From Morchella semilibera (lineage: Eukaryota; Ascomycota; Pezizomycetes; Pezizales; Morchellaceae), in contig CM018603.1 of NCBI GenBank assembly GCA_009192285.1, forward strand, positions 5,887,613-5,951,612: a DNA stretch of 64,000 nucleotides, written 5' to 3'. The position numbers and the translations under genes are program-made. The notes beneath the pieces are model-generated. The model saw only the letters and a list, made by a program, of their open reading frames with translations, was not told where the DNA came from and made no database searches. Shown one piece after another: positions 2,270-61,252 of this stretch (its first letter is position 1; every line of letters begins with the position of its first letter).

Positions 2270-3556
2270 GTGGATGTGACTAATTTATGGTTTTCCTTTC
2301 TTATTGGATGGTGGTGTATCTTTGGGGGATTCTTTATAAGGATCTCGCTGGGCATTTTTTTTTTTCATTCGAATATCGGGGGCTGTGAGTTGGTTTTATT
2401 GGGGTTCTCGATGTATTCTTTTGTAAATATTCGAAACACTTTATGTATTTCTGCCTTTGGTTTGGCGGAAACACGGAAAATGATGACTTTTTTTTTTTTG
2501 ACTTCCTGCACTGCTCGTCAGTTACTTGTGAGGCTTTAGAGTCATGTCCGATGAACGCAAACCGTGGATATAAAAGGGTGAACACAATCCGGCAAGTATT
2601 GTTTCCCATAGTGATGAATGTATTGTATAAGGTGTTGTGGAGGGAGGGGGAGGGGCCATATTAAGCTCTCGAGGTATCAGTCTGACTACATAAGCTTAGA
2701 TCCAATCAACACGAATGGTTACCAGACTAGCAGTGACGCAACAAGCTACACGCATGAAGCGAAAGTACGTATAGTATATAATGATTAGCTAGGGCCGATC
2801 ATAATCTCTTAGCTCTAGACAATTAATATCGGGGGTATCGAACAGTACATATAGATCAGATCTAAAGCTTACATGTATGTACCAACTTGTCACACTTTTA
2901 GTTTTGGTTTTTTGCAATTGAGGGGAATGACTTGAATGGGCACCTTACCAACAAACTTATCGCTGCACAAATCATGTCTCACTACCCCCTAAAACCACAA
3001 ACATACATACATGTATATACACAGCAACTCAAAGTTTGTACGTGCTGACGGAAGTGCCTACATACTTCGGGTGTAGGGGTAAGTGAGAAGACAGGCTTCA
3101 CGCAACCTTGGAAGAGTGGTGTCTTCCCACTTACCCCTACACCCAAAGTACATGCACCGTTCTAGCTATTCTTTAGCCGCTATACCTTTAGATTTCGAAA
3201 GCTTATACTGAACGCTAATTAACAGTAAATTGGTAACACGGTGTAATAATACCTCTACCTAAACTACATGGTAACACCAGTGAGCCTCCCAACCAAACCA
3301 ATATATACCATACCGAAATGGCCTTTGAGTTGCACGCGTGTATGAGTCAATCAATACCGGAATGCTCATCCACGAGTGATATTGTATGATTATATTTGTG
3401 TCAGCCAAGCCTTTTAAAGAGCCGCATAACCTAAGATTCATGCCGATCACTTGGTCGAGTATCTTTAATTCGCCAACTTTCTAGCTAACCCTTCACCACC
3501 AACTCTTTTAGCTATAGTAGGAATAAAATCAATCCGTACATCCACACTACCTTACG
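2270..3556. other. Intergenic region, glucokinase to TRIP4-like gene
   Basis: No gene is seen. The first 400 bases are T/G-rich and probably hold the glucokinase 3' UTR. The region carries TACATGTA at 2870 and 3008 and an imperfect inverted repeat at 3064-3149. The last 100 bases are probably the promoter and leader of the next gene. Confidence 0.5.
3064..3149. repeat. Imperfect inverted repeat (29-bp arms, 28-nt loop)
   Basis: The left arm (3064-3092) contains GGTGTAGGGGTAAGTG and the right arm (3121-3149) contains CACTTACCCCTACACC. The arms pair at 27 of 29 positions. It could be a miniature inverted-repeat element or a transcribed hairpin. No transposase or clear target-site duplication is visible. 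Confidence 0.75.
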
Positions 3557-5192
3557 ATGTCCGGCTCTCTTCAGTCATGGGCTCTCCCCCGCCTTAAACC
3601 TCTCCTACCACTCCCCGAAGAAGACCTTCTTCAAGCGATAACTTACGCCTCATCTCTCCCATCCGCAGAACGAGTCAGCTCCCACTTTAAAGTACAGTTC
3701 ACTCTCGCTTTTTACCCACTAGAAAACCAACAGCTAACCAAGCCAGGACTTTCTCGGTGAATCCCCAGAGTCACTGTCGTTTATCTCCGACTTCAATTCT
3801 CGCCTGTTTCCCCAGGCATCACAACCCACGCCAACCCCGCCACAACCACAAGGTAGTGATGGCCCCTCTGCGTCGAAGAAGAAGAAGGGGAGACAACCGA
3901 TTGGAAAGTTCGCCCAGGCACCCCGCCAGGTGGAAGACCAACCCACAAATGCAAGCACCGTCTATATTAAGAAGGAACTTGAGGATGATGAGTATTATAC
4001 CGGCCCCAGTAGGAATCCACGGACACCCGCCCAGTCCCAGGATCCTACCCCGACTGCTCCGCAGCCTGTATCAAATCCGCCTAAATCAATCGGAACACTT
4101 ACCTCCGACCTCAGGAATGTAAAGACGAAGAAGGCAAAGCCACAGCAGCAAAAAGTTGTTGTAACAGGCGGAACCTCTATGCGCGGCGTTTCAAAGGAAC
4201 TTGACGACCTTGAGTCGGCCCTCCGTACTCTCGAGATGTCAACCAACCCGACAATTACCACAGAGCGTCGTAAATGCTCCTGCATGGGTCTAAAACATGA
4301 AGTTTTTGCTGCTGCGCCTAATTGCCTTTCCTGCGGAAAAGTCATCTGTATTAAAGAGGGTCTCGGTCCATGTACATTCTGTAATGCTCCGCTCATAAGC
4401 TCGGAGGATATTCAGTCTATGGTCCGCGCGCTCCGTGAGGAGCGCGGAAAGGAGAGGATGGCAGTAAATGCGGCACAGAATAAACGTGCTGACGTTGCCA
4501 AGACACCAAAGCCGTTCTCTGGAACTTCGAGCCCGATACCCAGCGGTGATGAAGGAGATGGGCTTAAAAAGGCTATGGCACACAGAGACAAACTGTTAGG
4601 CTTTCAAGCAAATAATGCCCAGAGAACTAAGATTATTGATCAGGCAGCGGACTTTGAAACACCAGTCTCAACAGGGCTAAACCCATGGGCGAACCCACAA
4701 GAACGCGCGCTACAATTGAAGAAACAACAGAAGATCATGCGAACGATGGATTGGAATGCCAAAGAAGATTACGAGAAACGACGGGTAGTGGTCGCCATTG
4801 ACCTAAAGGGAAGAAGGGTAGTGAAAGAGATGCAAGATATTGCGCCTCCAGAGATAAGTAGTGATGAGGAGGAGGAAGTAAGCGAATACGATGAGAGACT
4901 AGAGAGAGGTGGTGCACAAGCACTTGCAGTAAAAGATAGAGGGAAAGGCATAGAAAGAGGAGGCCAGTACGCACGGAACCCACTCCTAAAAGGAATGATC
5001 AGGCCTAAATACGACAGAGCGGCCGTTGACGGAAAAGGAAAGGAAAAGGAAACAGACGGCAACATCCCAAGGACCTGGAGAAGGGTGCAGGATGAGCTGA
5101 AAGATAACGAGGACGTCATCCTGGACGGAGGTATTTACGGAGGAGAGAGAGCTGAGAGAGGGACTGTAGGAGAGGAGCCTGCTTGTGGGTAA
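3557..5192 (+). CDS. rqt4: ASC-1/TRIP4-type zf-C2HC5 protein (Rqt4-like, ribosome quality trigger)
   Basis: Homologues (human TRIP4, yeast Rqt4) belong to the helicase complex that splits collided ribosomes in ribosome-associated quality control and bind ubiquitin. Exons are 3557-3691 and 3747-5192 (intron 55 nt, phase 0), giving 526 aa, near TRIP4 size. The N-terminus has the family's short helical region, with LLQAITYASSLPS followed across the splice by FLGESPESLSFISDFNSR. A Lys-rich, low-complexity stretch follows. The C2HC5 zinc finger is at about aa 222-257: CSCMGLKH, then NCLSCGKVIC, then GPCTFCNAPL. It ends with a basic segment (ALREERGKERMA). The charged C-terminal half contains NPWANPQERALQLKKQQK. 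The TAA-containing alternative frame at 3723-3737 confirms that the intron is needed. The family call rests on the zinc finger and the FLGESPES motif. Confidence 0.88.
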
Positions 5193-8100
5193 AAAAAAAA
5201 AAGACTTTGGTATCTAGGTCATTCTTAAAGAATAGTAGTACAGGTATACCACTCAATGGAGCAGCCGTGCTAAAGGCTTCCAAAGTTTTGTATAAAGCCG
5301 TTCTAGGCAGTACTAGGGGATTATCCATATCGAAAGGTTAAGGTTCTGTGATGGCTGGTAGTTATATATCAGACATAACAGCCCATTCAAATCATTATTA
5401 CCTGTACTAGCAACCTTAAAGTAAGTATATGTATTTCAAATATCCACTAGCCAGTATAATATATAACTACAATGGATATTTACGTAGATGAAGGGTGTAT
5501 ATAATCGAGAGATATAGGCGCAATATGTGAACTTGGTTTAGTATACTCCGATGCCAAACGGAAAAGAGTCGCTCCCCGCCGTGTTTGAGTCTCCTCATAT
5601 ACATGTACCGTATGGCTCAGAATAGGCTGGTGCTGAAGGCGATTATGTGGCACGAGTACGTGTTACTATTATAACTTCTTTACTAGTGCTAATCGTTTGG
5701 TTGAGTCTTGTTATAACGTAGGCCCGACACTCCATGAACCGATATGCCAGGGAACTGTCCATCCACGGACAGCTATTCGGGCAAATGTCCACCTATGAGT
5801 AGGTGTGACTGGGTACTAAGTACATGTATCCATCACGGGCAGAGATTCAAACATACATTCTCAATCCGCAAGACAGTCACATTAGATACCGTTTCCAAAC
5901 CTCAACGACGCCACATTACGCTATAATCTATTAGCTATTGCCTATATATAAATGCATTTAAGTCATACCATCAAATATATACATGTACCATCAGAAGAAT
6001 CTTAAAGATACATACATGTAATCTATCAGGTGCCGGTGTTCTTTTCGGTAGACACCTGCCCGTTGCGTTGTCCGTCAGATAATAGAAAAGAGCCGAACGG
6101 CCAGAAAGTGTTCGTGAATAGACTACAACAATGCTATACCAGTGATGGTGAGTTTGTTTGAACCCTTCGACTACTCTCGTCATGTCTGTCGGCCTCGAGA
6201 TGATAGAGATGGAGAGTTCTGTGAGATAGAATAGAGACTGCAAAGAGTGTCGCCAGCCAACCGAGCGTATTCCCCACGGATAGGATCAGAGCAGAAACAC
6301 AAATAATTCGATACTACATGTATTCAAGAATGCCAAGCCCTAACATACCTCCAATCCCACCACTCCTGTTATTTTATGGGAGCATGTCTACACTACATGT
6401 ACTGGATATGATTACTGATGTAAACAAAAAAAAAAAAAAATCTACACTACATGTAGGCAAGGAAGATATACCGAGTGATATTTCATGAAGTGCCCCCTCC
6501 CCCCCTCCCATGCGCCGTTGCACCGCTTCGAGATAGAACAAGCCACTGGCTTCAACAAGGCATAGCAGTGTAAAAAGGAGTAGCCGATCGAAGTTTAAGC
6601 AGTTTCGATCCATCACGGTGCTGATACAAAATCCCCGGTACCCCAAACTACACCTCCGAGGAAATCCTCCCCGGCTTCAATATGGACAGATTTAACCTAC
6701 ACCAAGTCTTGCAAGTTCTCCCTACGCCAGGCCTATGCTGGTGGGCAGGCAGGTTCATGTTAGATGTAAACTGCATGTAGATTTTGTGCCATCATGGGAA
6801 TTGTGTGGCTTAGCAGCATACGCCAAAGACCGTGCAATGCTGCCGGGGTAACACTACCGCTCGATCATCCCGTCTGGCTGTGGCCTTTGTTTAAACCATG
6901 TATCAATCCATGTACCAAGCGCTTTCTACTCCTACAGTAACTCTCACCTCCGGTGCGCCCTTAAATTTTACTACCAGTGCTACTGCACACCGGCTCGGTG
7001 AACATACAACAACCACACCCCTTCTTCTCCATATGCAGTTCTCTATATAGGTGCTGCATAGTAGCTAGGCTTTAAAGAGGATATGGCTAAGTCCAGATCA
7101 ATACATGTATGCAGGGTTACTTTTGGGCTTGGGGAGATTAAATAAAGCTATCTTGGGTCCTCTGGACATAGAGTGAGAATTCGTTAGCTTGGGGGCAAGG
7201 AACAGATAGAGTCAATACGGCAGGTATATATAACTTGACCTGTTGGCCTGACTTTATTGGTAACTGTGTGGGCTATCTGCTTAACTAGTAGCACTGAGAT
7301 CTAGATCCCTTATGACACGAGTCGATTTATTTTCTACATATTCTTTGGTTATCGCATACTACAAGTAAACAAGCCGCCTAGGCCTGAACGGTTACCTACT
7401 TAGTTACGGCAAGTTATAAAAAACGGTTTTTGGCACTGGGCAAGTAAGTACCCAGTGATTATCGACTTATGCGCTATCAATCCCAACAGCGAAGTCTTTG
7501 GATGAACTCTAATCTGGTGAATCTATTATGAGTGAGGCATTTAGCGGCCTCTAGCATTTCTATATGTAACTTCCCTTAAAATATAAGTGCCGCCTGTAGT
7601 ACCCAACCCAAATCCGGCTTGCAAATACCTGACCTGTTCAAAGGTTGTGCTCAGCACCTTCGAATGGATTTTCAAATCCTCTAGAGTTCCAACCTTAATT
7701 GTCTTTACCGGAGGTACTAGTTGTGGATTCACTACATAAAGTAATTAGTTGGAGGCAAATACAACATTGTACTTGTGTGCATTACATATTCACATGGGGC
7801 ATTGAATATCACAGCTTTCGCTTGGCCACGGTCAACATAATCAGTTGCTTTCTATCTGCCAGGCGATAAGCTTGCCAAGATTGCCCATGAGTATAAACCC
7901 CAAGCGAATTCATCTTTTTTTTTTTAGCAAACAGTCAATCCTAATGAGATACAACTCAAAGACATCATCTACTGTCAGCGCCCGGACCGGATGCAGGTCC
8001 ATTGCTACTCCTAAACACCACTTACACACTATGTGGGTTTATGGCCAAAGGAAGCATTACAAAATGCCCCCCGGTAGTGTAACTTTCCAACGCGGAATTA

Positions 8101-9795
8101 TGTAGGTACAGGTACATTGCTCCTGAACAAAAAAAAAATGCCTCACGGCATCAAGCCGCGACTGCTATTTATGTCCGTAGACATGCTTTTTTTTTTTGGT
8201 CGAGATCACCAACGCCCAAAGCTTTCACCGCCTGGCTGGCTTGAGAATTTGAGGCGGCCCTACATGTACCTACATGTACTTATGACCCTTTATCATATGC
8301 ATGGAATCTGCGTACATATCCTGTGCGTGCTCAACGTGGATATCCATACATACATGTATCCATACATGTATGATACAAGCTTTAAACGGCTGTTTTTTTT
8401 TAACGAGCATTATATGTTCTTTAGTGATCCATGGTCGCGGTAAAGATTTGGTCTTTGAAGACGGGTCCTCGGGGTCACTCTCCAGAAATGACCAGAAATT
8501 GTTACAAGTTTTGTTATTTGGACGATTTGAATCTTGGCCTCCACCAGGTCAGCGCAATCGATGCAATCGAGAGAATCTACTGAAAATCCAAATTAGAATA
8601 ACGTCAGCCTGCACTGTTAGATGTTTTCTAAATATCTCAGGTCTGCAGACTACATCGTGTGGACGGCGGTGGGCGCATGGACCATGTTCATCTGGGAAAA
8701 ACAACCAGGGCCCTTCCCCGTCGTAACCGCTGCGCGCGGGTGTGGAGGAGGCGGGTGGAGGAGGTCGAAAATCGAAGAGGAACCCTTAACTGGGGGCCAC
8801 TGGATCCACATGCATTTAGCCTCATCCTATTTGTAGTACATACTCCTGCGATGCATCTTGCGACGTCAGGGTTCCGGGAAGTCACCAGCCAGTTAGAGGC
8901 ATTTCTGGATTATTCCACAGGCCGAAAGGAAATAAAAATCCAGTGTGGTGCCTGCGTCCGCCGTATCGCACTCTATCGACTGGCTGTATGTAGTAGTACT
9001 GGTATCTCTAGCCTCTCTTGAACCGATTGTAACCATTTTGAAGAGATACAGCTGAGTACCTGCTTCATAGGGATGCTCGTACAGACAGACAAAAGCCCAT
9101 ACATCATCGTCGTAATATTAATCCCTTCACGTAGAACAGGAATGATAAAACAAAAATGCAAATATGATTTATGGTGTGTGCGGGCGCCAATTACAGCCCT
9201 AGGGCATTACGCCACAACTACGTTGTTCCTGCCAGCCACATGGACAGGGTCATCCGCTCTCAAGCAGCTCGCGCTTCAGTTCACACACCCCAGAGATGAC
9301 GACAAGCTGCCGATCTTCCAACCCATGATGATGTTAGAAGAAAGTACCTCCTGTTTTTATACAACAAAACCAATTCTTGTTCGCTCGGAGTTTGGTTTGC
9401 GGGTGAGGGCTTTATCTCTATCTCCTAGATCTGCTCCTACCAAAGGTCTCTATTACGATCTTCAGCCACTCATCTAACGCTCGGTAGTAAACCGATAAAG
9501 TGTGCCTATTCAGCTCGCAACCCCAGGACAAAAGTGTCGGCCCAAAAGGCATATTTTAGAGCTGTCGCGCAACAGGAGGATTCCGTTTGAAAACTCAACC
9601 AGCCCAGCATTCGGTAGATAGATATACATGTATCTGGCCACGGGAGCAGGAGTCACACAAGTAGCAGCAGGTCAATAATCCAGACAGATAACCCCCAGTG
9701 CTCCTTCCTAATGTAAACCCCATCCAACAAACTTTTAGGAAGTTATTGACAACCCTTCTTTGACGCTACCACAGGCACCAAAATCAACATCTTAG
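5193..9795. other. Intergenic region rich in the TACATGTA palindrome
   Basis: I find no convincing gene in this 4.6 kb. It begins with an A11 run just after the stop codon. TACATGTA occurs at 5600, 5821, 5980, 6013, 6315, 6394, 6448, 7102, 8261, 8271, 8351, 8363 and 9625. A GC-rich patch at about 8640-8810 is open and might hold a relic exon (residues such as VGAWTMFIWEKQPGPFP), but nothing joins to it. The ATG-started 134-codon frame at 9073-9477 has no recognisable features. Confidence 0.5.
5600..6455. repeat. Cluster of seven TACATGTA palindromes
   Basis: TACATGTA begins at 5600, 5821, 5980, 6013, 6315, 6394 and 6448. The base before the octamer is A, C or G in every copy. Spacing is irregular, so this is not a tandem array. 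See the finding on the genome-scale pattern. Confidence 0.85.
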
Positions 9796-14753: not shown

Positions 14754-16062
14754 GAGTAGTAAAAGTGTTTCTTTTTTCCTTCTTTTTTTAAGGAGTTGAA
14801 GTTTTCCTGGCCCAAAAACCAAACATTTACTGCGCATAGAATGATCGACTGACTGACTGACTGACTTGACTCTTACACTCACACCCATATTGATTGGCCC
14901 CATTAAGCTGTAGCCCAAAAATCATGAAAACCACACACGTGGTCGCTCTGCTCTGCTCCCTGCTTACTCTGCCTGCATGATATTGTGAAGTGAGTAAAAT
15001 CAATCCATATGGCCATCGATCAATGAATTCCGCTCTTACTGCTGTTGCTGGAGCTCGAGTAAAAGTACATGTACGCTTCTCTACAGCCCCTTCACTGGAG
15101 TACATGCGTGCACTTGGGTCCTATAAGTAAGCCCAATAATAAAACGTGCACAAAAAAAAAGCACAAGGCCAGTCGGTCAGTCCGGCCGTATCGACGCCGG
15201 GCCGCTGGACAAATAAGATTGTTCTCCCACTCACAGCTCACTCACACACTCACTCACTCACTCGGGCCCGGAATCGCTTGCGAAGCGAAGCTGCACGTAG
15301 CTAAGCTTAAGCAATAACTACATAATTATAAAGACTCGCACAAAACGGCAACTAGAATGCACTTTATCAGATATTAGTCAGATTCGACGAATTAATCTTT
15401 GCAAATACCTAAAGTACACTTCTTTTTAAAGGTGAAGTTGCGGATGCAGGAGTTGTTGTAGAGTACCTAGCTAGGCAGAGTTGACAGTCACCCTCCTCCT
15501 CCCCCCTTCTCCTCTCATTAAGTTACACACATTCACACACACACACACACCACACACAGCCTTATCTATGGAGGGAGGGCCAGGAGTATGATAGGGGACT
15601 AGCTAGGACTGAAAAAATATTCCTTACACTGCGCGTGCCCGATACCTCTACCATATACTAGTAAATACCTCCAGGCAGGCGTATACCTAATCCTACTCTG
15701 TATCCCCCTGGTAAATTAAAGTCCGTCGGGGCTAACAGCGCCCCCAATCTAATAGCTTCCTCTAAGTGTGCAACTTTGTCATATTCTGAGTAATACACAT
15801 GCATGTATATTTGCTGCGCGTCTTCTTTACCTCCGCCAAGAAACTTACCACGTGACCTCTAAACACTTAGTCACGCCCAGCCAACGAACGAACGCCCTTC
15901 ACGGGATATCACTCGATATCTCGCCTTCCACCGTTTCTCTATCAGCTAGCTCACATTCCAGCGGAACATACCGGGCGGGATATTAGAGATTGGGCCGCTG
16001 GAAGGTCACTTTTTTATTTTTCCTGTGCCGCCTGCTCCACCTCAAACACAGAGAGCAATACA

Positions 16063-16405
16063 TACATGTACATGTACAATGTATATCTGGAGGTATGACT
16101 CCCCCCTAGATAACTATGTACATGTACATGTACATAAGCTAGCATGGCAGTAGGTGTACCCCTATGGTTCACGCGCGGTGACACACCTGCTGTTGGCGGG
16201 TTTAATCTTAGATATTGTGCGGCCCGAGGCGCGCGGGGATATCTTGAGGGTGGGGGAGGGGGGTATGAGTCACTCGCTGGGTAAAAACAAGGTTCTTGTG
16301 TGGCCTAAAGGTAAAAACTAAACTATAAACCTCCTAATCTACATAATCTATCCCCAATATGCTACTGTGAGGGAGAGAGAGAGAAAGGAAAGGAAGCTAC
16401 ATGTA
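16063..16405. repeat. Dense TACATGTA cluster with overlapping copies
   Basis: Copies begin at 16063 and 16069 (overlapping), 16119 and 16125 (overlapping), and 16398. The overlapping pairs create short tandem ACATGT runs. More copies follow at 16620, 17042, 17247 and 17324. Confidence 0.85.
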
Positions 16406-17509
16406 CGGACTGACTGGTTGACTGGCTGGAACTAGCGGGCGAGCGAGCGAGTAAGTGAGTAAGTGAGTCACTCGTATATAGCAACAATTGCTGGTGGCGC
16501 TATATAGCGATACCTATCTCATTCTACTTGCTACTTGAGATTAGAATGAGACATCACATGGCCCGGGGTGGCGGGGATCTTCTTTGTGGGAGAGTCGAGC
16601 ACGTACTACCATATTAAAGTACATGTAAGCCAGGGACCTTGGCCTGATTCGAACCCAACAAAACAAAGGAGTTTGTCAACAACTGTGTGCCAGACAGCTA
16701 ACCTTTTGATGTCCTCTCACTCTAACCTGGTGGGCACGAGACACTGCTAATCCCCCCCCCCCTCCCCCAAAACCCACCCGCCACAAATGGCCCTTTACGC
16801 TCAGTACCGGCTGGCCGGCGGTATAGCATAGGTTACAGTACCCTCTACTACACAGTGCCAGTGACGCTGACCTGATGGTGGCCAGCGCCGCTAGACTCAC
16901 AGCATGTAATCGTGCGGATACATACACACACGTACACGGTAACAACCCTTCATGTGCTGTATGCCTAGTTGGGTACCATGTGTGTATATGTCTATATCGG
17001 GAGGGTACACGATCTGCCGCCAGAGGTGGTGATATACAAAGTACATGTAGGTATCATATTCGAAAGCCCTATATAAAGCTAGGTTCACGGTTTGTTGCCG
17101 GATTAACCCCTACCCCCACCCACCCCACCCGGTACAGTTGTGTGATACCCGAAGAGATCGAAAACCTTTTTTGCCAGAAAACCTCAAACCACAGACTTTA
17201 GCTTTTACGCTTGACCACAGAGTCGATCATGCAATGCATATATGGCTACATGTATACACCCTTAATTATTGTTACTCACTCTCTATGTAAACTAACTAGG
17301 TTGATTTTGGTTTGCTTGACGTGTACATGTATGTTACACGTATGATTATGGTTTGTATCCGAACTCTTAGAGTTTGAACCCGGCCACAAATAGCTTTGTA
17401 TACGGGGATTAATTGTGCAGTGCCTGAGCATGAGGTCACAATCTTCTTAAGATGAGTATTATTGCCACTAGTGCTTGTGGAATCCATTTTTAGTTAAATT
17501 ATTATATAA

Positions 17510-17656
17510 GCAATTAGACCGTGTGCACCTGTGGCGAGCACGTACCTGTGCCGGGCATCTTAAGGATCTACTACAAATGATGGCCTTTATTATGTGGATT
17601 AGATAAGATGCTCGGCACAGGTACATGCTCGGCACAGGTGCACACGGTCTAATTGC
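17510..17656. mobile_element. MITE-like element: 53-bp inverted repeat, 41-nt loop
   Basis: The left arm (17510-17562) starts GCAATTAGACCGTGTGCACC. The right arm (17604-17656) ends GGTGCACACGGTCTAATTGC. The arms are complementary at 50 of 53 positions. Inside each arm a unit around GCTCGGCACAGGT is present twice, so the arms carry a short internal duplication. The size (147 bp), AT-rich flanks and lack of coding sequence fit a miniature inverted-repeat element or a foldback. No target-site duplication can be assigned with certainty. Confidence 0.7.
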
Positions 17657-20600
17657 ATATGTAGTTGCAGCACCCAAGCGAAACTTCGTAGCCACATAAT
17701 GGCTAATACTTCCAAATAATAATAATACTATCATAGGCGAAAACCTGATAGCGTGGTTGAAATCAATGGTTTGTGTACTGAGCAATTAACAGGGGGAGAA
17801 AAGGAAACAATTAGAGCCGAGAAACAGACCTTGATCCCCTTCAATATTCCCCATGATCTTGCTTAGTCTATGATCCGAATGGGTCCGTTGCCGATTTATT
17901 AGTAACTAAGAGTAACCAAGCTCGTACCCCTCGCTTCTAGAAGCTGCTTAAGCCGGTGGATATTGCGCATGCTAGATCTTCGAGTGACCATTCATGACCT
18001 CCTCCTCCTCTGTTGCCCCCGGCTTACGCCCCCCACCACTAACGAGGAGTTTTCATAAAGTGCAAAACCAACCCCCTATCAAGCTACCATAGGTTTTGAA
18101 AAATAATATCTCCGACAGACGCGTATTATAACCATCCCGTTTCGGATAAATGGCCAGGGTGGCGTAGCTTACGCGGCCCTTTTTTCCCTCTCTCGCTACC
18201 AAAGACACTTTATAGTAGACCCACTTGAAGAGATTCCCCCTCCCCTTTTTTTCTAGCCTTTTCAAAGTGTATAATTATTTGTTGACATGTACAACTGAGC
18301 CCCAACTGCCGATCATTCAAAATCACTCGGCTTGGTAGCTGCTAGTGTAACCCGTTCACTGCTGCCGAGTTTTCTTTCTCCGATCCGACTCTTTTGGCTG
18401 TAGTTGTAACCTCTCAAAATTGATGGTTTCGTATCGCCAGATTTCGGGCATGTAACCGCTGAGGCTGTGTTGGGCCTTGCAACAACAAAACTCGTCAGCG
18501 ATGAACCTCTGGCAACAACCCGTGTGCGTTGCGCAGTAATCACAAACCGTAAGGCCTACGTACCTCTCTTTCTATTGAATTGACAAAGATAATTATTTAG
18601 ATATACAGCGATGCAATTCTTGCTTCGCCTCGTTATCAATTAACTCATTGGTGGTCTTAAAAGCCGTAATTAAGGCAGTCGTGATGTACGTTGCAGATCA
18701 AGGCCGGAGGTTGGTCCATGAGCCACTACCTACATTTATGTAGATATGAAATCGATCAGATAGTACAGTTCAGGCGTACCATTAATCCCATCTAGGCGTC
18801 CCCCCTGATCAGGGTAACTTTGTGCTCCAAAACACTACCAAAAAAAAAAATCCAATGATAAAATCGACAGAAAATTATCTGATCAGCCTTAATCCTTGAA
18901 TCAAGGTTTCCGGTGCTTACTCTACCAACCACCCCACAATTTATGTAATTATCCACGCCCTGTCTTCCCATGGTTAGCGTAAGCACATAGCACTCAGTAT
19001 CCAAATCCCGGGCCCAGAATTCGATATTCCGTCAGGCAAAGGCCCGTTTCAAGCTCAGTGTAAAACCGCAATACTTTAAACCAAGAATATTATGGTACCT
19101 CTAGGCACAGAGTCGACCCACATAGTACAACATCGGAAGCGCAATGAGCCGGTAAAACCCGCACTCCCTTATACTAAAACAAAAGTCAGGCCTGTGATTT
19201 TTCCAAATCCAAGACCATGCAGGTTGGCCGTTTCGTTTCCTACTCTGGAGTAGATAGGTTATGAATGCAAGCAACCCTTGGACACTCGGGTGCGTTAGAT
19301 GAGCGGGGTAAACTAACGATACATGGAGCCATTTGCGGTGAGAAATGAGAATCCAGAGCCAGTCGTTGTGCCCGTACGCCGGTATGTGGAGTAGAGTGGG
19401 CACTGCACGAGATCTACTTGTGCAGTACAAAAACAGCGAGATCAGGGGACAAGAGGTAATCCTTCCCCATATGAGGTCCTCACGAGACGATTTGGAGAGG
19501 GAATCCGGAAAAAAAAAATTGGAAACCCCTAGCCTTGAGCATCTCACGATGTTTTAAACCTATCAGCACCAAAAACATCAACGTAATATTAGTTTAAGCT
19601 TAGAGGTTCCTTTCGACAGATTAGATTAGAGCCTTCCCTCGACTGACGTGATTGTGACTCTCAATTCCCTTGCCCACTTATATTCAAACACCCGGCTCTG
19701 TATCCCGAATACGACCACTAACAAAAGCAAAGGCAATTATGCAGGTTCCTTACCTAGCGGAAGTAGAGTTGATAGTCAGTCAACTCTGATCAGTCTATAT
19801 TCTCTATTTGCTGACACGGAGTGAATGTTTATCTTTTACCAAAAAATGCGGCTGAGGAGAGAGAAGAGAAAGAGATCCAGAGGAGAGGAGGTTAATCTGT
19901 GACGCATACTTCAGTCAGTGTTGGTGCTAGGTATCCATGCTCACCCTCACCGTATCGATACGGAGAGAGTCACGGGGAGATAACCACTTATGTAGCCACC
20001 TATTAGAGTGAGTACGTGCAGGGTAGGGCGGCAGGGATGAAAGTATGTAAAGATGGGGGCTGAGAGAAAAAAAAAAAGCAGAGGTGCGGCTCGAACCGTA
20101 CTGGCCATGGTACACCAGCGGCATCATTGTCGAGATGAGAGAGCCTCGTTTAGTCTGTCATAATTACCATCAGCAACCCAACCTGAGCCTTAAAAGCTGC
20201 CTATCGGCTGTTACCTATTATACCTGTGTGCTACAGATCATGTCGATCTCGGGAACAGCACACTGGAATCTGGAAAGCTTCTACATATGTATTGATTAAT
20301 TGAGTAGCTGCTCATGAGGTGAGCAGGAATAGCCTTTTGGGCCTCCATCCGCGCCACTGCCATCGATTATTTGTATATGTCACTAATTAACCGAACAAAC
20401 CGGAGAAATCTATCGCAAAAACAAACCAAAATCCCTCGATGATATAAATTTAGGTTCAGATGGGCAGCAATATGCCCTTACATCATGTCCGCTCGTCAGG
20501 CATGTAACCAAGGGCAGTCATGTGAAGTACGGTAGGTATTCTACAGCAAGGCGCAATCCTTAATTGCTGAAGTTCTTACCCGCGGGATAGCCACTTCGGA

Positions 20601-23600
20601 CTAGAGGATACAAGATCATGAAGTGCAAGAAGAAAATTATGATGTTTTTGCTGCTTCGCCTTGTATCTGCGCACCTTAAAACGTGTCGTCACGTGCAGCA
20701 GGGAGAGAGCCAGGAAGCCGGCCCGCACAGCGAACCGAAGATATGGTAAACAATCGCTATACCGGATGAACTTTGAAACGTGACACCAGTATCTGCTGGA
20801 ATATGCGCTCTAGGTACTCAGATGTCAATGCACCACCAGTAGGTACAAACGATAGTCACGCAATACTTGAGATTTGCGAAGATACTTATCAGTAAGATGA
20901 GGAGTAACGAGATTTTGGGCCGACCGCGTGTCCACCAGAAGCATGTATGTACTCCCGTCATGAGCTGAAAATGACATGAACTTACTGAAGGGGGAAAGTC
21001 CAATTCGGCATTCTGTCTTATTTCTCCTCAGTACACGTTCTTACTCCCATTGTAGAAATTGGTGGTAGATTGTGGCGAAACAAAAGACAATTACCTGGGG
21101 TGAATATGAAGTACATTGTCTCTAGATATTGTTTGTGACAAGTTCTGACTCGATATGCCAATCAATCAGGCGTTTTAATATAATATTATAATTAGGCAGA
21201 CTTCGCTCCTGTTGGCCGGCGATGTGAGCGATGCGAATTTCATAGAGAAATGGGTCGCCAATCGATTTTTAAACTCTCGTTATTGGGGAGGCACCTTCCG
21301 AGATCTTTTTCAACCTTATTAAGTATTTGGAAAAATGCCAGGCTGTGTCGATGTTTACATTCAAAAGTAGATGTTTCTAAGCCACTGCTGAGCTTAACTT
21401 TTCTAAGCCTCAAATGCAGTTTATCCAAGGGAGTGGGTGATCTTTGAAGCCACAGATGTGGCTGCAAGCACGATGACGTTATTTTTTTAGCTCTCATTGG
21501 GCCAATAAAATGAGTCAACGACTTAAATTGTGTTTTATTGGCTAGAGAGAGTCATCGACGTGTTTGGGTCTAGATAAGTTGCGGTTAGTCAGTCTAGGTT
21601 TTTTATTGGCTCGCAGTAGTCGGTAATACATGTATGTGCGTTTCACAGGAACACCCACCGAGTCCTGTCCCGGGGCACCGCAGTTCCTTAACGAATCTTC
21701 AAAGTGCTGAACTTACTCTGGGAATTAGTGACTATGTGAGGCTCCTTTTAAGACCTCCACTCCAGGTCCCACACCTTATCCCGGGGGGAGTTAGATTTAG
21801 ATTTAGAGAGACTAGGACCTTATGTTTGTTATTTATTGTTGCACGTAAACAACATCAAAATAGGCAAGAGACAGTAAGAGACAGTATGAGAGGCTCGGGG
21901 CCTAGCATCCGAAAACGGCTAGATGGGCGGGAGCACTGGATTGACGCAACCACAGCAGCGCCAGACACACAGCCCATTTTCACATTTTCACACTTTCCGA
22001 CCAAGGAAGAGAAGCCAAAAAAACAGCCTTTTCCATCGTGTGAAAAGAGTCATCAGTGGAAAGTGCAAGGAAAATGATTGGTTCCGTATATCTTATGCAT
22101 TGCTGTGTGTTACGGATCGCTGATTTGGCAAGGGTACTCAAACTCTGTGCTGCCAGCCCCAAGACCTACATACCTACCGACCGGCAAAGTTCAGACAGCA
22201 AATGGCAAATATGCAGCACGATATGAGCTCACAGTAAAATGCCTACATACCTACCAAGAAGGTTCCCTACGTCTCAGCTCTCAGTACAGGAATGCGAGAT
22301 AACTTAAGTGATAAAACGTTCGCAAAGAGAGAGAAGGGATTTCTGTTACGACATTTATAAGATCCGTTCGGGTCTCTCTGTGGAGGACTGTCTATAATCT
22401 CGAGTTTCTGGTTGTGCCTGGCTGCCTGTGGTATAGGAGATAAAGCAGCAGGGTGGGAAGGGTGTAAGAAGTACACAGGATGCAGTGTAGAGAGAGGTAG
22501 AGAGAGGAATGAGTTTGAGCGGTGTGGTGTGTGGGCGGGCAAAGGGTTACTCATCGATCATAACCCCCGCCTGGCTCAGAACAAAACTAAAGGCTTGCCC
22601 CCTCCCGCGAAAGATACCTTTTGATCTCTCTCGTCAGTCAGTCACACGCAATAATGAGCAGCTTTACAGATTTCCCGAAAGAATAGATACAGTTCCGGTT
22701 CTGTCACTCCACTCCCCGCTCAATCTGAATACCATTGCTTTGTCCAGCTGTCCGCTCTCCCCACATTGTCCGCAATCTCCCCACTCTATTAATTTCAGCA
22801 TTCCATTTCTTCACCGGAGTGCCCTAAAGAAACGGAGGGAGAAGAAGAGGAAGTCAGTTTTCTCCGCCGACGTCCGAGACAACGTACATTCGGACTCATA
22901 CCTTGTCCCCCTGCCCCGATAAAATCTGTCATCGGGCACTTTTGCCACCAGCCCCCTCCACACACACACACTCACTCACCCACACACCCCTCCCTTCCCC
23001 TCCAGATCACTCGGCGTGCGAGCTCATAGTTGCTCACCACTTGGGTTACTCATTTTTACCATACTCCCTCTTTGTTCCGTTGGTGTTTTATATAATTCCC
23101 CTACCTCAGCCGCCGCATCAACCTGCTACACTCAGCACTCAGCTGGGACCTGCATCCAATCGTCCAAGTCACCATTCTCTTCATTTGCCGCCGCATTATC
23201 ATCATCAGAACCATCATCATACCACCGTACCTCAGGGTCTCAAAGCAGAAGTCCAGTCAGTAGCGCGTTTGTCGTCTGCGTCCCTGAAGTAGGGCCCCAC
23301 ACTACTGCCTATTAGCTGAGTTAGCCTGTGCCACAACCAACCCAGCTGGTCCTGACTCTTTCTCAACCAACGCCCCTGATCTCACTTAGTCAAGACTCAT
23401 TTCGGGATTCGACCTGTCTCACAACCCTCAGCCATTTACAAAAACACACATCATTACCACCGCCGAAAACTTTCTTCCCGGGTCTGGGAAGTATCACAAT
23501 GTGTTCTGTGAGTATTACTAGCATCGCCGAAGGATCTCCAGCCACCACCTCACCCGCCCGTTTCGCCACCGTTACTTTCACTACATATTCTATTGCTATC

Positions 23601-28797: not shown

Positions 28798-28856
28798 TAC
28801 ATGTAAGTATCCTAACTACATGTATTCTATGTTACGTACATGTAGCTGTACATGTA
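28798..28856. repeat. Four TACATGTA palindromes in 59 bp
   Basis: Copies begin at 28798, 28817, 28837 and 28849. Spacings of 19, 20 and 12 bases put the first three at close to two helical turns apart. That is suggestive of a protein-binding array, though it may be chance. Confidence 0.85.
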
Positions 28857-31800: not shown

Positions 31801-34110
31801 TAAATGGGAATTGTAGCTGTAAAGAAAAGAGCCACTTAGGGGCAACCGGCTGATCAACTGCGCAAACAACTCAAGTAGAGAATCATTCCAAATTACTTTT
31901 GTTTTAGCTAGGTACATGCATGTATATATACATGTACTATGTAGGTACATGTATCTAGGCACTTAAAGTACCAGTATGTTTTATCAAAACTCTCTACAGG
32001 CTGTGTTGGTTTGATTAATGGGGTTCTCCCGTAGGTGGAATTAAAGTCAAGTGGCTATGGTAAGAGCAACAGAGGCTAAAGCTCAAAGTGATCCTAGCTT
32101 CACACAGTTCACAGTTCACGAGGAGGCAGTTGGTATGTAGTGGATAACTCTGTTCGCGCTCAAATCTCAATCTGGATCCGTTCCAGTGGGCCCTGCGAAT
32201 CTGCCCTAGCGTATTCCTGATTCGCCATACATACTTGCTGCCTCATGCAAGATTATGGCCAAGTTTATGGTTGCTTCATATGGAGAGACCTAGGGAGATA
32301 AACCCATTTGCCTGGTGGGGGCATCTCTGTGCTCCCCTCTTTCTCTAACTGGTGTTATCTTGTAAACAGCACTCTCAGCTGGTGTCACAAATTACGTTAC
32401 ACATCAGCGGCTCGCGGAAGTTTCCGTCTGAACCACCATCATCGCTTAAGTCTCATCAGCAGCCAACAGGAACCGCATGTTGGGCCTGCTCTACCAGCGC
32501 TATCTACCGAAGGTTAGTTTAGGTTGCCTAAAATAGTTGCTGTGGGGAGCATTTTTGGTACATAGCCAAGGACTGAAAAAGCTGACCCTGATTTTGGGGA
32601 AACTACGCTCACCAGTTCAGTGCCAGTGTAGAGGTATCGCGAGTATGTACCGTTAGGGAGGGGAAAGGGGTACCGGTATGTTCTCCCTCGAGCTCTTCAT
32701 TAAGCAATAAACTTACAGCCTTGTCTTGTACCACATTATTTAGGACTGCCCAAAACCATTCAACAAGACCATCCGGCTATCCTTCCCTCATGATCTTTCA
32801 TTGGCATTTCTGTCTTTGTCCTCTGAAAAAGTCTCGCCACACAACAGTACCTGTAGTAGTTAGCAGTCTGTTAACCATCGCCCGGCAAAATAAAAAGAAA
32901 AATAAAGGAGGGAAACAACCTCAAATGAAGCTGCCAGTTTAATGTCAATCAACTTCCAGAGGGGGGTCCGGAACAATCCCAGGAAGATCGCCACTGGGAT
33001 TCTTTTTACAAATCTAAGATCGTCAGAAACCTAGCACCAAGCTTTCAATCTTGTCTTTTATGAGTTCCAGCCCCATGATGCGACAGAATGGTGGACAGGG
33101 CAGGGTGTGAAATTTTCGAGTTGCAATGCCTCTGGCTAGTTACTCTGGGACTTAACCTGAAATTTTAATGGTTTCATGTTGGCTCAGAGGATGTCTCCAC
33201 TCTGGCTCGCCAAAGTGAGAGGGGAAGAAACCATGTGTACACAGACTGTTTTTCTCCGTTGGGTTATAGTTATGATTCAATTAGGTTTCTTTCCAATGCG
33301 GCTGGATAGGTAAAAATGGTGATTGTACCACATTAGAGCAGAGTATGTACCCATGCGCAAAATTATTTTTCCGAATAAACCCTTCTTTCAGCGGTATCGC
33401 GGTATTCTGGCCGAAACCTGCATGATATGAGGTGTCTGTCGTTTTTTCGCCCCCCCCCAGCTCCCTCGTCTAGAAAGTCACTGAAGATGCGACGTTGAAC
33501 CAGCGGCTTCCCGCTTGACTACTAACCATATATGCTTTGCCGAGGCGCATGTGTGGCATCTGCAAGTCAACCCTTCCGCGTGGCATTCTAGAGTAGGGTC
33601 TTTTGTCTCCTCCCCACCTCTCACTCTCCACTGTCTCCTCCACTCTTCTCCGCGCGGAGATCTGGATTCTAGGCCACGTTGTTTTATCGACTAAACACTT
33701 TGAAAAAAAAAGCGAACAACAAACGGTCGGGCGGTGCAGTGTGCAGTAGTGTGCATTTGCAGAGAGGCCAATTCCGTTACAATTGGCACGTTGGGACCTT
33801 CCTAATATATAATCCCCAGATTCCCCAATGAGGGGGAAATCCCTTTAGAACCATACCCGGTCCAGTATCATCAGGTTGTTAACTGTGGTTCTTATTGGAC
33901 CTGCTGGGGAAAGAAGATAATGCTTTATTTATCAGCGAGACATAGGAATTGTCAATGCTTAATTTAACCGTATCCTTGGACCATCGGCCCCACAGTATGC
34001 GGTGTTGATCTAGACCCTCGGCTGTGCTGTTGGGCCTTAGGAGAAAGGTGGATTAGAGGTCGGGTGCTCGTGGATCAGCAAATCCTTGACGGTTGGCACT
34101 ATTGTCACGT

Positions 34111-34597: not shown

Positions 34598-37500
34598 ATT
34601 GCATCGTATACTTGTAGCCGCTAGCCGAAGCGGAAGACAAATGTCATACCACGAACTAAGACCACCCAACTTGATAAAGCCCCTCTTTTGAGAGTTCTGC
34701 ACACTCAGGGCCCGATGTTCACGATGTTCAGGAGCGCTATAGTATAGCTAATGGTAGTTGTAGAGGTTATAGGACTAATCTATCCCGAATAGAGCGTACC
34801 TACTTATCCACCTACTATTCTGATGCAATTGCCTAATGGAATCATTAAATCATTTTCGGTCTGTGCTAGGTGATCAAGATCTTGTACATGTGCATTCTTA
34901 CCACTGGGTTTAGGATGATGGTAACCGTCAGAATGGGATTCCAGAGGTTCGTTACCTACAGACACTTTACGGAGGGCACCCGTCGAGAGCCACGTGGGGT
35001 TAATAGGTACTGTCAGTGCCAAAGGTTTGGGGTAGCTTAACCCAGCCCCTTTGGTATGAAAGAGGATTAGGAACTCGGTTGAAACAGGAGCTGCAGTAAA
35101 TCCAAGCGACAAAAGTCTACCCAAACTAACTTTTGACGTCCCTACCCTCGCGCCCAATTACCGCCACATCGCTTTGTGTGGGGGTTATGGCGCAAGTGAA
35201 GGTGGGTCCACCAAAGTTTCACGCGCGCATGTAAGATGCGTGCCTGAGCTCCAAAGCAGCACGGTGATAACAAAGTGGGCCCTGGCATTAGCAACCAGCG
35301 TATATGCTTGTATTTACAACAGGGGTTCAAAGGCCAATTGATGCGAGACATGAAGTCTGTGTTAAAAGTTGCAAGCTGTTAATGAGAAGTTATGTAGTAT
35401 GTAAAACGAGGTAATTAGGAATATGTCCCTAACCCTCGGCCCCTTAAATGGGAGCATTAAGAGTATTGGTATTTGGAATTATCTCGTCAGAAGCCGGCAG
35501 CGTAGATGTTCATTATATTGATACCCCGTACTATGTTTGATCCGTGCTGTCGTGGCTTCTTTGAAGATATCGATGATATCGGTGTTTTTGGTTCATGGGG
35601 CCGAAGTGCAAGACATAGTTCGACGTTTTAGACGCCCATTTTGTCTGTGGCAAAAAAGATGTCGTATCCCCACAGTGATAAAAGTACTAACAATACATGT
35701 ATGTTCTACGCGGGAAGACACTGTTGGACAAGGATGTGAGCCGCAGTGATGGGATTGGTGGCTTGAGGCGGTCTGTCGCAATCCCTTGATTTGACCGCCT
35801 TCAAAGCGTATCGGATCGAGAGATGCTACACCACCTAAATTGCCGAATAAATTTGATTTGTGCATGTTGGGGTGGGCAGTATCGAAGCTTTCGGGGGCGT
35901 TCGGCTTTTCCCTTGCACCAGGTAGTTGGGATGATGTTCACCAACAATCAAGGTTAATAGTAATCCCAGTTGGAACACTTTATAGCCCCATTGGAGCTGT
36001 GAGACATGTCTTAGATGTCGCTACATGGTCGGTCTTCGGGCGGCTTGGGAGGACATGGCGCATTCAAACTTCATCATAGGGGGTTTCTTTAGCAGAGGAG
36101 AGGAGCACCATGGTTGAAAGGATAAAATAATGATCGAGGGCTCTGTAGATTTTGGTTGCCCTACTGCACATGGTGTCTAAGACTACACATTATCTACCAT
36201 AATTGGATATACTTGACCCCAGAAATCTCACAGCCCTTCGTACAGCCGCCAGCTATCCCGAGAAGAGTTATGTAGGCTAGAAACCACACAATATCAGTGT
36301 CCCTGGTAGATTCCCACCGGTGAACCTACTTACCGGGTCGGGGATTTCGTGCAGCACCTCTACTTTCGTTGGTTATGGCCTAAGAACTCGCTTTCTATAG
36401 CATTTCTGGGACGGTATCTATGTTTTACTTTTTGCTAATCGTCCTTCACCCCCTTTACCAACGTTGAATTCACAACCAGACCCTTGTCTTAAATTAATTC
36501 GCCTAATCGAGACAATCTGCTTTCAGGCAACGTTTTATAGCCTTTGTTCAGTAGTTGCACATGAGTCCATGTGAATCAACCCGTTTATCCTATCGCGCCC
36601 AGAACAAACATTAGTCTAGATGCTCCCGTCAGGCATATTAAAACTGTTCTTTTTTTTTGCAAATGAACTTTGATGGATGCAAAAGCTGGAAGTCCCGTCT
36701 TCACCGCTCAAGAGATCTAGAGCTCAAGATAGTACAAACGATATCTCTACTCTAGTCAGCTTCCTGTGTTGTTTATCGTCCCATCTGTAGGATCAGACAT
36801 TACAGGCCGGTTATTTCTTTTTCCCTATGGGCACAGCGTCCACTGGATTTTTTTTGACACTGTCATTCGCGTGGTTTATGCGTGGCACTAAACCCGTTTG
36901 CGGAAAACGACCTGGGGGAGAAGAAGTGGGGCAGCAGCAGCGGGTGCGTTACGGCGGATCTGGATCTATTTGATGAGTGACCCCAGCAAATTCAGCGCTC
37001 ATCCATGATTTGACCGTCGGGGAGGCCGGGAGGTACCCAGGCAAAAGGAACAATTTTCGGTTGTCTGGCCAATCAAAGGTGGGACATAACAAAAAAAAAG
37101 CAAAACAGAGACATGTTTTCATCGAAGAATGTCTCAGCTTTTTCTAAGAAAGAAATTTTGCATGCGTATAAGCGAGCTTCCAATTGGGAAAAGATTTATC
37201 CAATTCGCGGTCACGAAAAGGTTTGTACCTACAAGTCAATATGCAGGAAGCAAAGAACAAAGGGTAAGATCTATCTTGGTGTCTCGTGTCGTCTCAGTGC
37301 CTGGGCTATGGTGGCTAATGTTTGTTCGACTTGGATGAGTTGTGCAGAGAAAAATAAGATCCTCTCTCCCTCTGAGGACCGAAGTGGATTCTTAAGATGA
37401 ACAGCCCAAAGAAAGAAATCGCACAGCATATGAGCGTTCCACAAACACAAACTCCGGAGAAAGAGGCACACTATGTCCACGTTGTGTAGAGTACTATACT

Positions 37501-52296: not shown

Positions 52297-53087
52297 TGAG
52301 TGATACACGCCGGCCATCATAAGGCAAGCGGGGGTGGTAGAGAGGAGGTGGGATGCAGGAGAGGCAGACAGACAGACGAACGAGCATGGGGGGGGGTCTT
52401 TTTTTTTCCCCTCCTCTCCCTCGCTCTTTAACTAGTGGCGGGAGGACGAAATGGAACAGCTGCAACGTAACGCATATGTATGCCCAGTGGGGTGCGTTCT
52501 GGGGTGGAAGGGAAGGCTGACTGAGAGACGTTAATTAGAGTGTATGGATGTCTGTGTACCTACTTAAGTACATGTAGATAGATACATAGGTGTACTATGT
52601 ACTTTGTAGGTACTCTACTTCGTGTAGTGCTCTACTATCATTAATAACACCAAGCATTATAAGTGTTCAGAGCACGCACCCGAGATTTGATTGGCCATGA
52701 TGCACATTGCGAAACATTTCTTTCCCCTCCCAGCCCAAACTACAGACGAAAAAAAGAGCTTGGTTTAGCGATTGCTCTTAACTACATACATGTATTACAA
52801 CTCGGGTATTGTAGTTGGAACCGTAAGCCGGGTCCGTTGCATGCATTTCGTGCGTGTTTTTCCTTTTTTGTTTGTGCTTCCCTCCCGTGAATTCCCTGTT
52901 TCCTACTGTTTCCTTATTTTTTTTCACCCCCCCCCCCCCTCCCCTGGTTTCTGGTGCGTGGGTGGTAACTTCATGTTGCCCAAATGGGGCCATCTCTTTA
53001 ACATTCCAAACGCAACGACCTGCCTTTATCTTTCTTTTTTTTTTCTTTCTTTTCGTCTGATCTTTGCCTTACTCAGCTGTTTAACCA

Positions 53088-55962: not shown

Positions 55963-55985
55963 AGGATGCAATGGGGTGGATGGGG

Positions 55986-56881: not shown

Positions 56882-56912
<31 letters not shown>

Positions 56913-59494: not shown

Positions 59495-59562
<68 letters not shown>
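59495..59562. repeat. AAT trinucleotide repeat, about 22 units
   Basis: Pure (ATA/AAT)n. It creates poly-Asn, poly-Ile and poly-Leu frames that are not genes. Confidence 0.95.
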
Positions 59563-59565
<3 letters not shown>

Positions 59566-59991
59566 CGCACGGGGGTATACCGATGTCACTGTCGATGATT
59601 CGGTTCTGTTGAGTAGCCGCTTGTAGAGTAGAATTAAAGTAGGTACTCTGTGGGTACTCTATGTATAGAGGTACAAATCGTTAGGCTTACTACATGTACT
59701 GTCCTTAACCCCAGCGGTTGGAGGTTAGGGAGGTCGTGATGTGCGTTGTTCATCAACGTGCAGACGGAATGCACATGCTCCCGGGCTTTGTGCGATCACA
59801 GCGATCTATCTTGCACTTCCGAAAACCAAGGGCAAAAGGTTTGAGCCATTGATGTCACCAGTCATGTGGACATATGTACATACTTTAACTCAATGGACTC
59901 TGTTCATGTAGAGAGAGTACTATTACGTGCTCAAACAGGTCTACAATATATCATGGACAAGGCAAAGAATAGTAATACAGATTAATTGAGC

Positions 59992-60057
59992 AATGCAGCA
60001 ATGCAGTAATGCAGTAATGCAGTAATGCAGTAATGCAGTAATGAAAGTAATGAAAGT
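59992..60057. repeat. Octamer tandem repeat GCAGTAAT
   Basis: About six copies of an 8-bp unit, starting with a variant GCAGCAAT and ending in two GAAAGTAAT-like variants. It sits between TACATGTA copies at 59691 and 60066. Confidence 0.85.
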
Positions 60058-61252
60058 AGGACATCTACATGTAACTATTCTTGAGACGTCTTCGTGGCCC
60101 ATTAGATACATGTAACTTTGCTCCTTAAACGTCCTACATGTACTTAGATACATGATGGTATAAATAAGTCTTGCTTACACGAACCAAGCATCTAAAACAA
60201 CAATATAATCTAGGAATTGTACTACTACACTTGCTTGTACGAATTGATCAAACGATGGGTGTGGGAGTGCGTCTGACTGTTGCTAAGTCATGGAGGATCA
60301 TTCAGGACCCTGAATCTCCAACCAGCCAATTGTTAGCCCAGGTCAAGTAAAGCGAGCGGGTGAGCAACACTGATGCACCCGAACGAGCAATAGTGCCACC
60401 GATTCCCGTTCCCAGCTGAGCTATCGAACATTCTGGCAAAACCTTCCCACCTGCAAGGCTCCCCGCGTTTCAATCTTCTGCAGAAACGAAACCCATCAAA
60501 TCAAGAGAGCGGCCTCAGCCTCCAAACGTGTTAGGCGATGTACGGGTGTTGGGCCGGCTTAGCAGCACACACAACCCCACTTCGTGATCAAGCGAGCGAA
60601 TATTACGCCGTAGCATTCATCCAAGGTATTGCCGCGGCTTCCTCGGTACTCAACTTGAGATCCTCTTCTGGCCAATCGTGGCAAATGCTTGACCCCGTCT
60701 GCATCTTGTGCCACAAAAAAATCCCATTCAGTGACGGGCCGCCCCGTCCAGAGTTACAGAACCAATGGAGACATGTAGAATTCATTCTGCTCAAGCTCTA
60801 TGCTGCATATCACACCACATGCCGAATAAGTCACTGGATCATACGACAAAAAAAATAATAACGAAAGGCGGTCCATAGACAATACTGTAAGCATAAATAT
60901 ATCTCTTCCTCACTACTATGTATCCAGTTTTGTTACTAGTACCGTATCCATGAGGAAATAAGTATAGAATCCAGGTAGAAAAACGGTCCAGCTTAACCAT
61001 AGTCGGATTTTCTACACCCCCCCCTCCAAAAAAATAAAAATCGTAAGCGTGAAAAAAAAAATCCGTACGGCAAAGACCAGGATGGATGACTGAGGGACGT
61101 CAGAATTCAGCATCTTGGTCCAAGCCTCCAGAAAATCAGGTCGATGTCCGTGCGTATCCCGTGAAAGAGGAGACTGGCTTTCGCGTCCGGCAGTACCCGA
61201 CGCAACCTTGTTCGATAACCGCAATCGTACCCACGTCGACTAGTTACCAGCA

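Follow-up and report, generated by a model that had tools for sequence, protein, structure and literature searches.

The DNA considered here is a 64,000-nucleotide stretch of the ascomycete Morchella semilibera (assembly GCA_009192285.1, contig CM018603.1, positions 5,887,613 to 5,951,612; hereafter the window), whose proteins include a PF08613 cyclin and, as judged by eye, a Zn-cluster-like stretch, and which carries 40 copies of the palindromic octamer TACATGTA, most likely scars left behind by excised transposons. An initial annotation, made from the letters of the window, had listed these 40 copies and pointed to an interval between 35.7 and 52.5 kb that holds none; every position proved exact, and the gap was borne out. 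The comparison of palindromic 8-mers with a Markov background that it had proposed came out in favour of over-representation in a sample of 254 kb, made up of the window and 19 further stretches, each 10 kb long, with L019 and L020 covering nearly the same DNA (L numbers denote individual genome stretches taken for reading, and C numbers the contigs of the genome). In the sample, TACATGTA occurs 97 times against 4.96 expected under a third-order Markov model and is the top 8-mer by z (58), followed by AAAAAAAA (49), with TATATATA as the next palindrome (22). The genome holds 22,206 copies in 56,756,124 bases and 23 contigs, about 1 per 2.6 kb, as against 3,723 copies of the reversed control word ATGTACAT. 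Further palindromes above expectation in the sample were GCTCGAGC (13 against 2.6), GCTTAAGC (9 against 1.8) and GTACGTAC (9 against 1.6), with ATCACTCG and CCGAGTGA likewise in excess.

Paired genome-search hits, judged by eye, suggest that duplicated haplotigs make up perhaps 5 Mb, or about 9%, of the assembled sequence and that they inflate the genome count of TACATGTA somewhat. The contig pairs C9/C10, C12/C13 and C21/C22 share identical stretches (9,842 bases in L019/L020 and 5,551 bases in L029/L030), with shifting offsets between the paired hits, and have the appearance of such haplotigs. Near-identical subtelomeric duplicates that were compared showed no difference in TACATGTA content (6 and 6 copies; 1 and 1). 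Five stretches (L013, L014, L022, L016 and L026) are repeat nests, in which one 634 bp repeat has 40 scored copies 88-100% alike, and these nests hold 5 TACATGTA in 50 kb, as against about 20 at the mean density of the genome.

With exons not annotated, stop-to-stop frames served as a proxy for coding DNA in a 244 kb set, which is the same sample minus L020. By this proxy TACATGTA, which had been said to be restricted to non-coding DNA, is rare in long frames: none of 93 copies lies in a frame of at least 300 amino acids (16.7% of bases), 1 in frames of at least 200 (26.4%), 6 in frames of at least 150 (35.8%) and 26 in frames of at least 100 (57.1%). Among the comparison words, 215 of 952 CATG, 15 of 61 TACATC and 2 of 14 ATGTACAT fall in frames of at least 200 amino acids. 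The near-absence from long frames is not special to TACATGTA, since TATATATA is also missing from frames of this length (0/57). A codon-usage model placed none of the 97 copies in coding DNA, but it was badly trained and recognised no more than 10% of the sample as coding.

Over the 97 copies in the sample, the only shared flank is a weak symmetric one of the form TAnn-TACATGTA-nnTA (T 0.48 at -4, A 0.57 at -3), and no copy in the window lies inside the cross-matches of the fetched sample. The earlier statement that the copies share no longer flank is thus right for long flanks and has to be qualified for this short one; that they are not remnants of the body of one transposon family stands, as no long flank is held in common, and they look instead like short remainders of excision, a few bases each. 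At position -1, A (0.35) and G (0.30) are frequent, and T makes up 13% when both sides are pooled. The preceding base had been described as almost never T, which is so in the window, where T precedes 1 of the 40 copies, but is less strict on the other side, where A follows 6 of them. TAnn is present on 60 of 186 TACATGTA sides (32%), compared with 9% for all TAs, and its commonest form is TACA (12 sides against 1.5 expected). Copies also lie close together, with 10 pairs at most 20 bp apart in the 254 kb sample, and they overlap: the pair TACATGTACATGTA occurs 501 times genome-wide, where 8.7 would be expected at a single fixed offset, and its reversed control occurs 90 times.

The origin of the word can be followed in miniature inverted-repeat transposable elements (MITEs), short TA-flanked elements with inverted repeats, scattered through the genome, which were found by self-comparison of the sample and by genome searches and which serve as insertion traps. 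In all, 108 copies from five families (35 of H90, including one diverged copy in L027, 10 of family B, and 21 each of A, C and M113) were aligned pairwise within their element cores, over 16,103 aligned bases. H90 is a family of almost perfect 90-bp hairpins that land mostly at GTAC (L009:4815-4904 and 33 copies in L034-L066), and family C (L017:7125-7286 and L074-L093) is about 160 bp long and has inverted ends of 45 bp. Within the elements there are four TACATGTA, none of them in the 21 copies of family C; each of the four is an insertion at a TA, and in two cases the gain is exactly 6 bp. In L047 (H90), GGCCA-TACATGTA-GTTCTGG stands where most sister copies have GGCCA-TA-GTTCTGG, a gain of exactly 6; L071 (family B) likewise gains exactly 6 at CCA-TA-TCC, a site at which, of the nine other copies, only L069 deviates from TA, with +3. 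In L027, the diverged H90 copy has TACATGTA at the TA that is also used in L047, with one extra G and a gain of 7, and L113 (family A) reads TTAG-TACATGTA-GTTTTTG, which is +7 relative to the common state TTAGTGGTTTTTG and +6 relative to the GTAGTTTTTG state of L097 and L109. Because four copies were observed in the traps, where chance would give 0.3 and the genome density 6.3, insertion at the rate seen in these alignments can explain much of the genome count. At the inner TA of H90, insertions are present in five copies (L047, L054, L062, L063 and L027), among them the variant forms TATGTA (L063), TATATA (L062) and TACAATATGTA (L054); elsewhere, TATGTA was found in L072 (family B) and TATATGTA in L027 (family A). 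By eye, L072 also has a CTAG-like 4-bp gain next to its TATGTA gain. The remaining insertions in the alignments (including L069 +7, L110 +8, L072 +8, L066 +6 and L059 +6) represent growth of tandem repeats or homopolymers or differences between subfamilies, or are of unclear nature.

From the form of these gains we consider, with a good deal of confidence, that TACATGTA is most likely a footprint left when cut-and-paste transposons of the Tc1/mariner type, which insert at TA, are excised. Such an element would duplicate the TA on insertion, and on its exit the cuts would fall two bases in from its 5' ends; with CA...TG ends, CA and TG would stay behind, flanked by the duplicated TA, end joining would give TA-CA-TG-TA, and each visit would thereby convert TA to TACATGTA with a gain of 6 bp. 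Insertions in exons would be selected against, and scars would as a result gather in non-coding DNA. The direct support consists of the TA gain within MITEs, the CA...TG ends of resident elements, Tc1-type transposase domains and the landing of MITEs on scars, and what was found has the marks of a footprint: a TA-duplicating gain, matching ends of resident elements, a transposase of the superfamily, and variant scars at the same site. That excision was the route of the gain, that the cut was offset by 2 nt, and that selection removed scars from exons we infer from the pattern as a whole. The explanations offered at the outset fared unequally: an insertion process is upheld by the four traps, all at TA, a binding site is not needed to account for the count, and the likeness to the highly iterated palindrome HIP1 of cyanobacteria is weak.

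The 40 copies in the window (Table 1) presumably arose as those in traps elsewhere in the genome did; none lies in a comparable repeat in the self-comparison of the sample. The window also contains a perfect (ATA)22 array (59495-59561), a AATGCAGT array with 94% matches directly ahead of a TACATGTA cluster (59992-60052) and a GGTTGT array with 89% matches (55985-56064).

Table 1. Copies of TACATGTA and hairpin elements in the window; copies are labelled as putative scars by extension from traps elsewhere in the genome, and the strand is entered as a dot throughout.
Feature	Position	Strand
Putative TACATGTA scar	2870..2877	.
Putative TACATGTA scar within TACATACATGTA (chain of TACATA + TACATGTA form)	3008..3015	.
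Small hairpin element, TA...TA bounded, arm ends with 1 mismatch in 16, right flank TA-CATG; H90-like by eye	3063..3150	.
Putative TACATGTA scar	5600..5607	.
Putative TACATGTA scar	5821..5828	.
Putative TACATGTA scar	5980..5987	.
Putative TACATGTA scar within TACATACATGTA	6013..6020	.
Putative TACATGTA scar	6315..6322	.
Putative TACATGTA scar	6394..6401	.
Putative TACATGTA scar	6448..6455	.
Putative TACATGTA scar	7102..7109	.
Putative TACATGTA scar, in four-copy cluster 8261-8370	8261..8268	.
Putative TACATGTA scar, cluster 8261-8370	8271..8278	.
Putative TACATGTA scar within TACATACATGTA, cluster 8261-8370	8351..8358	.
Putative TACATGTA scar, cluster 8261-8370	8363..8370	.
Putative TACATGTA scar	9625..9632	.
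Putative TACATGTA scar	15066..15073	.
Putative TACATGTA scar, first of overlapping pair TACATGTACATGTA (probable re-hit of one TA)	16063..16070	.
Putative TACATGTA scar, second of pair 16063-16076	16069..16076	.
Putative TACATGTA scar, first of overlapping pair TACATGTACATGTA	16119..16126	.
Putative TACATGTA scar, second of pair 16119-16132	16125..16132	.
Putative TACATGTA scar	16398..16405	.
Putative TACATGTA scar	16620..16627	.
Putative TACATGTA scar	17042..17049	.
Putative TACATGTA scar	17247..17254	.
Putative TACATGTA scar	17324..17331	.
161-bp hairpin, MITE-like, TA at each end	17503..17663	.
Putative TACATGTA scar	21627..21634	.
Putative TACATGTA scar, in four-copy cluster 28798-28856	28798..28805	.
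Putative TACATGTA scar, cluster 28798-28856	28817..28824	.
Putative TACATGTA scar, cluster 28798-28856	28837..28844	.
Putative TACATGTA scar, cluster 28798-28856	28849..28856	.
Putative TACATGTA scar	29659..29666	.
Putative TACATGTA scar	31929..31936	.
Putative TACATGTA scar	31946..31953	.
Putative TACATGTA scar	35694..35701	.
Putative TACATGTA scar	52569..52576	.
Putative TACATGTA scar within TACATACATGTA	52787..52794	.
Putative TACATGTA scar	59691..59698	.
Putative TACATGTA scar	60066..60073	.
Putative TACATGTA scar	60107..60114	.
Putative TACATGTA scar	60135..60142	.

Candidate sources of the footprint were sought among resident transposases and MITEs. With a cut-off of E 0.001 the genome has 69 profile matches to DDE_3 and 96 to DDE_1, numbers that include pieces of exons as well as duplicates from haplotigs, and several of the DDE_3 matches are open. 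Six elements were read, four with DDE_3 (L114-L117) and two with DDE_1 (L118 and L119). Terminal inverted repeats bounded TA-CA...TG-TA are present in L114, L115 and L116, three of the four DDE_3 elements, and the DDE_1 elements have ends other than CA...TG. The proteins of L114 (366 amino acids), L115 (368) and L116 (389) have DDE_3 and Tc3-type helix-turn-helix domains above cut-off; residues 138-366 of L114 align with the Sleeping Beauty transposase (E 1e-34), and the three acidic catalytic positions are kept in this alignment. Sleeping Beauty excision leaves a 3-base scar, and the Sleeping Beauty-type words TACAGTA and TACTGTA showed no clear enrichment. M113, a 113-bp MITE with an L114-type end, has TA-CA...TG-TA boundaries and the target G-TA-C in all 21 copies read, of at least about 38 loci. 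Its GTAC target is unlike most scar flanks, and M113 and L114 were rejected as the main source. Since most scar flanks do not fit the taste for GTAC shared by M113, H90 and family A, the main source is probably a family other than these three. A TACAGTCGC-ended MITE (L012 and relatives, with ends CAGTCGCC...GGCTG) gave 17 matches and has looser target flanks, with TAs that lack T at -1, as read from only 17 sides after one unclear side was dropped; its taste appears closer to that of the scars, but this is far from proof that it was their source. Families A, B, C and H90 were also set aside, as their own ends would produce other scars and those words are scarce, and so was an 897-bp inverted repeat at L017:6586-7482, considered as a CA...TG source, which is single-copy save for its inner MITE and one 70-base match.

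Scars are favoured landing sites. All 8 family A copies with both ends readable (of 21) sit in the TA of TACATGTA, as do 7 of 34 H90 copies (6 of 20 in a first batch and 1 of 13 in a second; L009 does not) and 5 of 21 M113 copies, the last two counted by eye from positions; as background, 54 of 868 GTAC sites in the sample (6.2%) would qualify as lying in a scar. The Tc1-like element L115 also sits in TACATGTA. CATG was considered as family A's own end and rejected: all eight copies show at least one perfect CATGTA/TACATG side, the other side deviates in six of the eight, and this flank pattern seems better explained by landing in a scar. A scar would offer the target TG-TA-CA, and return visits to its TAs would give TACATGTACATGTA, TACATACATGTA and clusters. 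It is possible, if rather less than probable, that the process seeds itself, with TA-CA and TG-TA being the sites that the transposases favour, each excision leaving two better targets than the one it used, scars breeding scars, and clustered islands growing by 4 to 6 bp per visit. Such a loop would explain both the overlaps (501 against about 9 expected) and the clusters, which suggest self-seeding hot spots.

Several observations weigh against an origin by excision, or at least limit its reach. One TACATGTA in L014, in a 2-kb repeat, differs from three relatives by scattered substitutions and shows no insertion, and some copies are for this reason of another, perhaps chance, origin. The diverged H90 copy in L027 and L047 use one TA and may not be independent. 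The fourth DDE_3 element read, L117, showed no terminal inverted repeats; the scar flanks (A 0.35 and G 0.30 at -1; TAnn) differ from the G-TA-C target of M113; the L012-type MITE has only about a dozen copies; and MITEs A, B, C and H90 are without CA...TG ends. The words that the ends of these four would leave are few in the 244 kb set (TACCGGTA 1, TACTAGTA 6 and TAGATCTA 8), TACTAGTA and TAGATCTA standing at 2.5 to 2.8 times expectation. With resident copies numbering from tens to hundreds, a total of about 20,000 scars would call for much past activity. TACATA/TATGTA is enriched 1.67-fold, but so are other TAnnTA words, and this enrichment was dropped as proof of minor scars. Finally, single-base neighbours of the word are uneven in the sample, with CACATGTA, TGCATGTA and TATATGTA at 0.71, 2.8 and 2.6 of Markov expectation, in small numbers, and CACATGTA and TGCATGTA thereby depart from the even decay that their counts over the genome suggest.

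The shortage of assigned parents bears most directly on the proposal that a transposase produces the 6-bp gain at TA while no whole element is excised, as in an aborted insertion or in the repair of a cut that carries in CA/TG. Resident CA...TG elements of matching target taste are few, and most scars are without an assigned parent, as this proposal would have it; suitable CA...TG elements are nevertheless resident in the genome, and whole-element excision is the established Tc1 source of TA-CATG-TA, also cited as such in PMC3520976. We regard a route without excision as unlikely. Less likely still is that TACATGTA is the site of an abundant protein, such as an Irx-like (Homeobox_KN) factor, kept by selection in regulatory DNA in the manner of Phytophthora motif-1. 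The word is an exact palindrome, clustered and nearly missing from long frames, its neighbours are unevenly enriched in the sample, and PMC3520976 reports it in the upstream DNA of 12,070 Phytophthora genes, where it correlates with expression, and names it the preferred Irx site. Against this, the word arises in MITEs in one step, by insertion at TA in four of four cases and not by point mutation of near-sites (the L014 copy, in another repeat, may be due to substitution); and the 501 two-base overlaps could hardly be occupied by two dimers together. Two neighbour classes moreover show a similar excess genome-wide, CACATGTA at the outer position (3,654 against 1,569 for the reversed control) and TGCATGTA at the second (5,179 against 2,668), which fits neutral decay of scars, although this is a weak test, with 2 of the 12 classes counted genome-wide and the reversed word a rough control. 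A HIP1-like mark, written and maintained by a repair or methylation system, would also be a single over-used palindrome, but the near-absence of TACATGTA from long frames (0/93 and 1/93 at the two longest thresholds) and its gain in MITEs by insertion at TA instead of base substitution leave this idea with next to no probability, and it was set aside.

If TACATGTA is an excision footprint, scars have made one 8-mer the top word of a genome sample, at about 1 per 2.6 kb, and past transposition would become countable, mappable and datable even where no element is left. The landing of MITEs on scars would be a testable feedback between excision and insertion. If self-seeding also proves true, selfish elements would alter which words make up non-coding DNA and may imitate regulatory motifs, among them the TACATGTA and TACCGGTA 'promoter motifs' of Phytophthora. 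Excision scars are usually studied locus by locus, and a literature search, mostly without subscription papers, showed among the matches listed no report of TACATGTA as an over-used fungal word and none of excision scars dominating the word counts of a genome. The footprint is known in kind, and its present scale was not found reported.

Among known systems, HIP1 (GCGATCGC) is spread through the DNA of cyanobacteria, coding and non-coding alike, unlike TACATGTA, which is scarce in long frames. HIP1 is likewise one greatly over-used palindrome and is tied to methyltransferases (PMC4390886), whereas TACATGTA arises by insertion in traps. Motif-1, or M93, of Phytophthora is the same TACATGTA palindrome and very abundant upstream of genes (PMC3520976, PMC3597505); there it is treated as a transcription factor site, and here the same word is read as a probable scar. 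PMC3520976 weighed a footprint origin and set it aside on account of abundance and conservation. In PMC3597505, M93 is listed next to M94, TACCGGTA, which is the word that a TA element with CC...GG ends would leave; both motifs, each of the form TA-xx-yy-TA, may be scars in Phytophthora as well. Scars may also account for palindromic 'promoter motifs' that are abundant and were identified through over-representation, and Phytophthora TACATGTA offers a direct test case. The Tc1 footprint of Caenorhabditis elegans, in the IS630-Tc1-mariner superfamily, has the same eight bases, a TA gain with duplication, CA...TG ends and a DDE transposase. TATGTA is a minor form of the Tc1 footprint and is also present here. 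PMC3520976 cites taCATGta as the Tc1 footprint and describes it as rare in C. elegans; here, in contrast, the word has 22,206 copies, is the top 8-mer of the sample, is clustered, and serves as a landing site.

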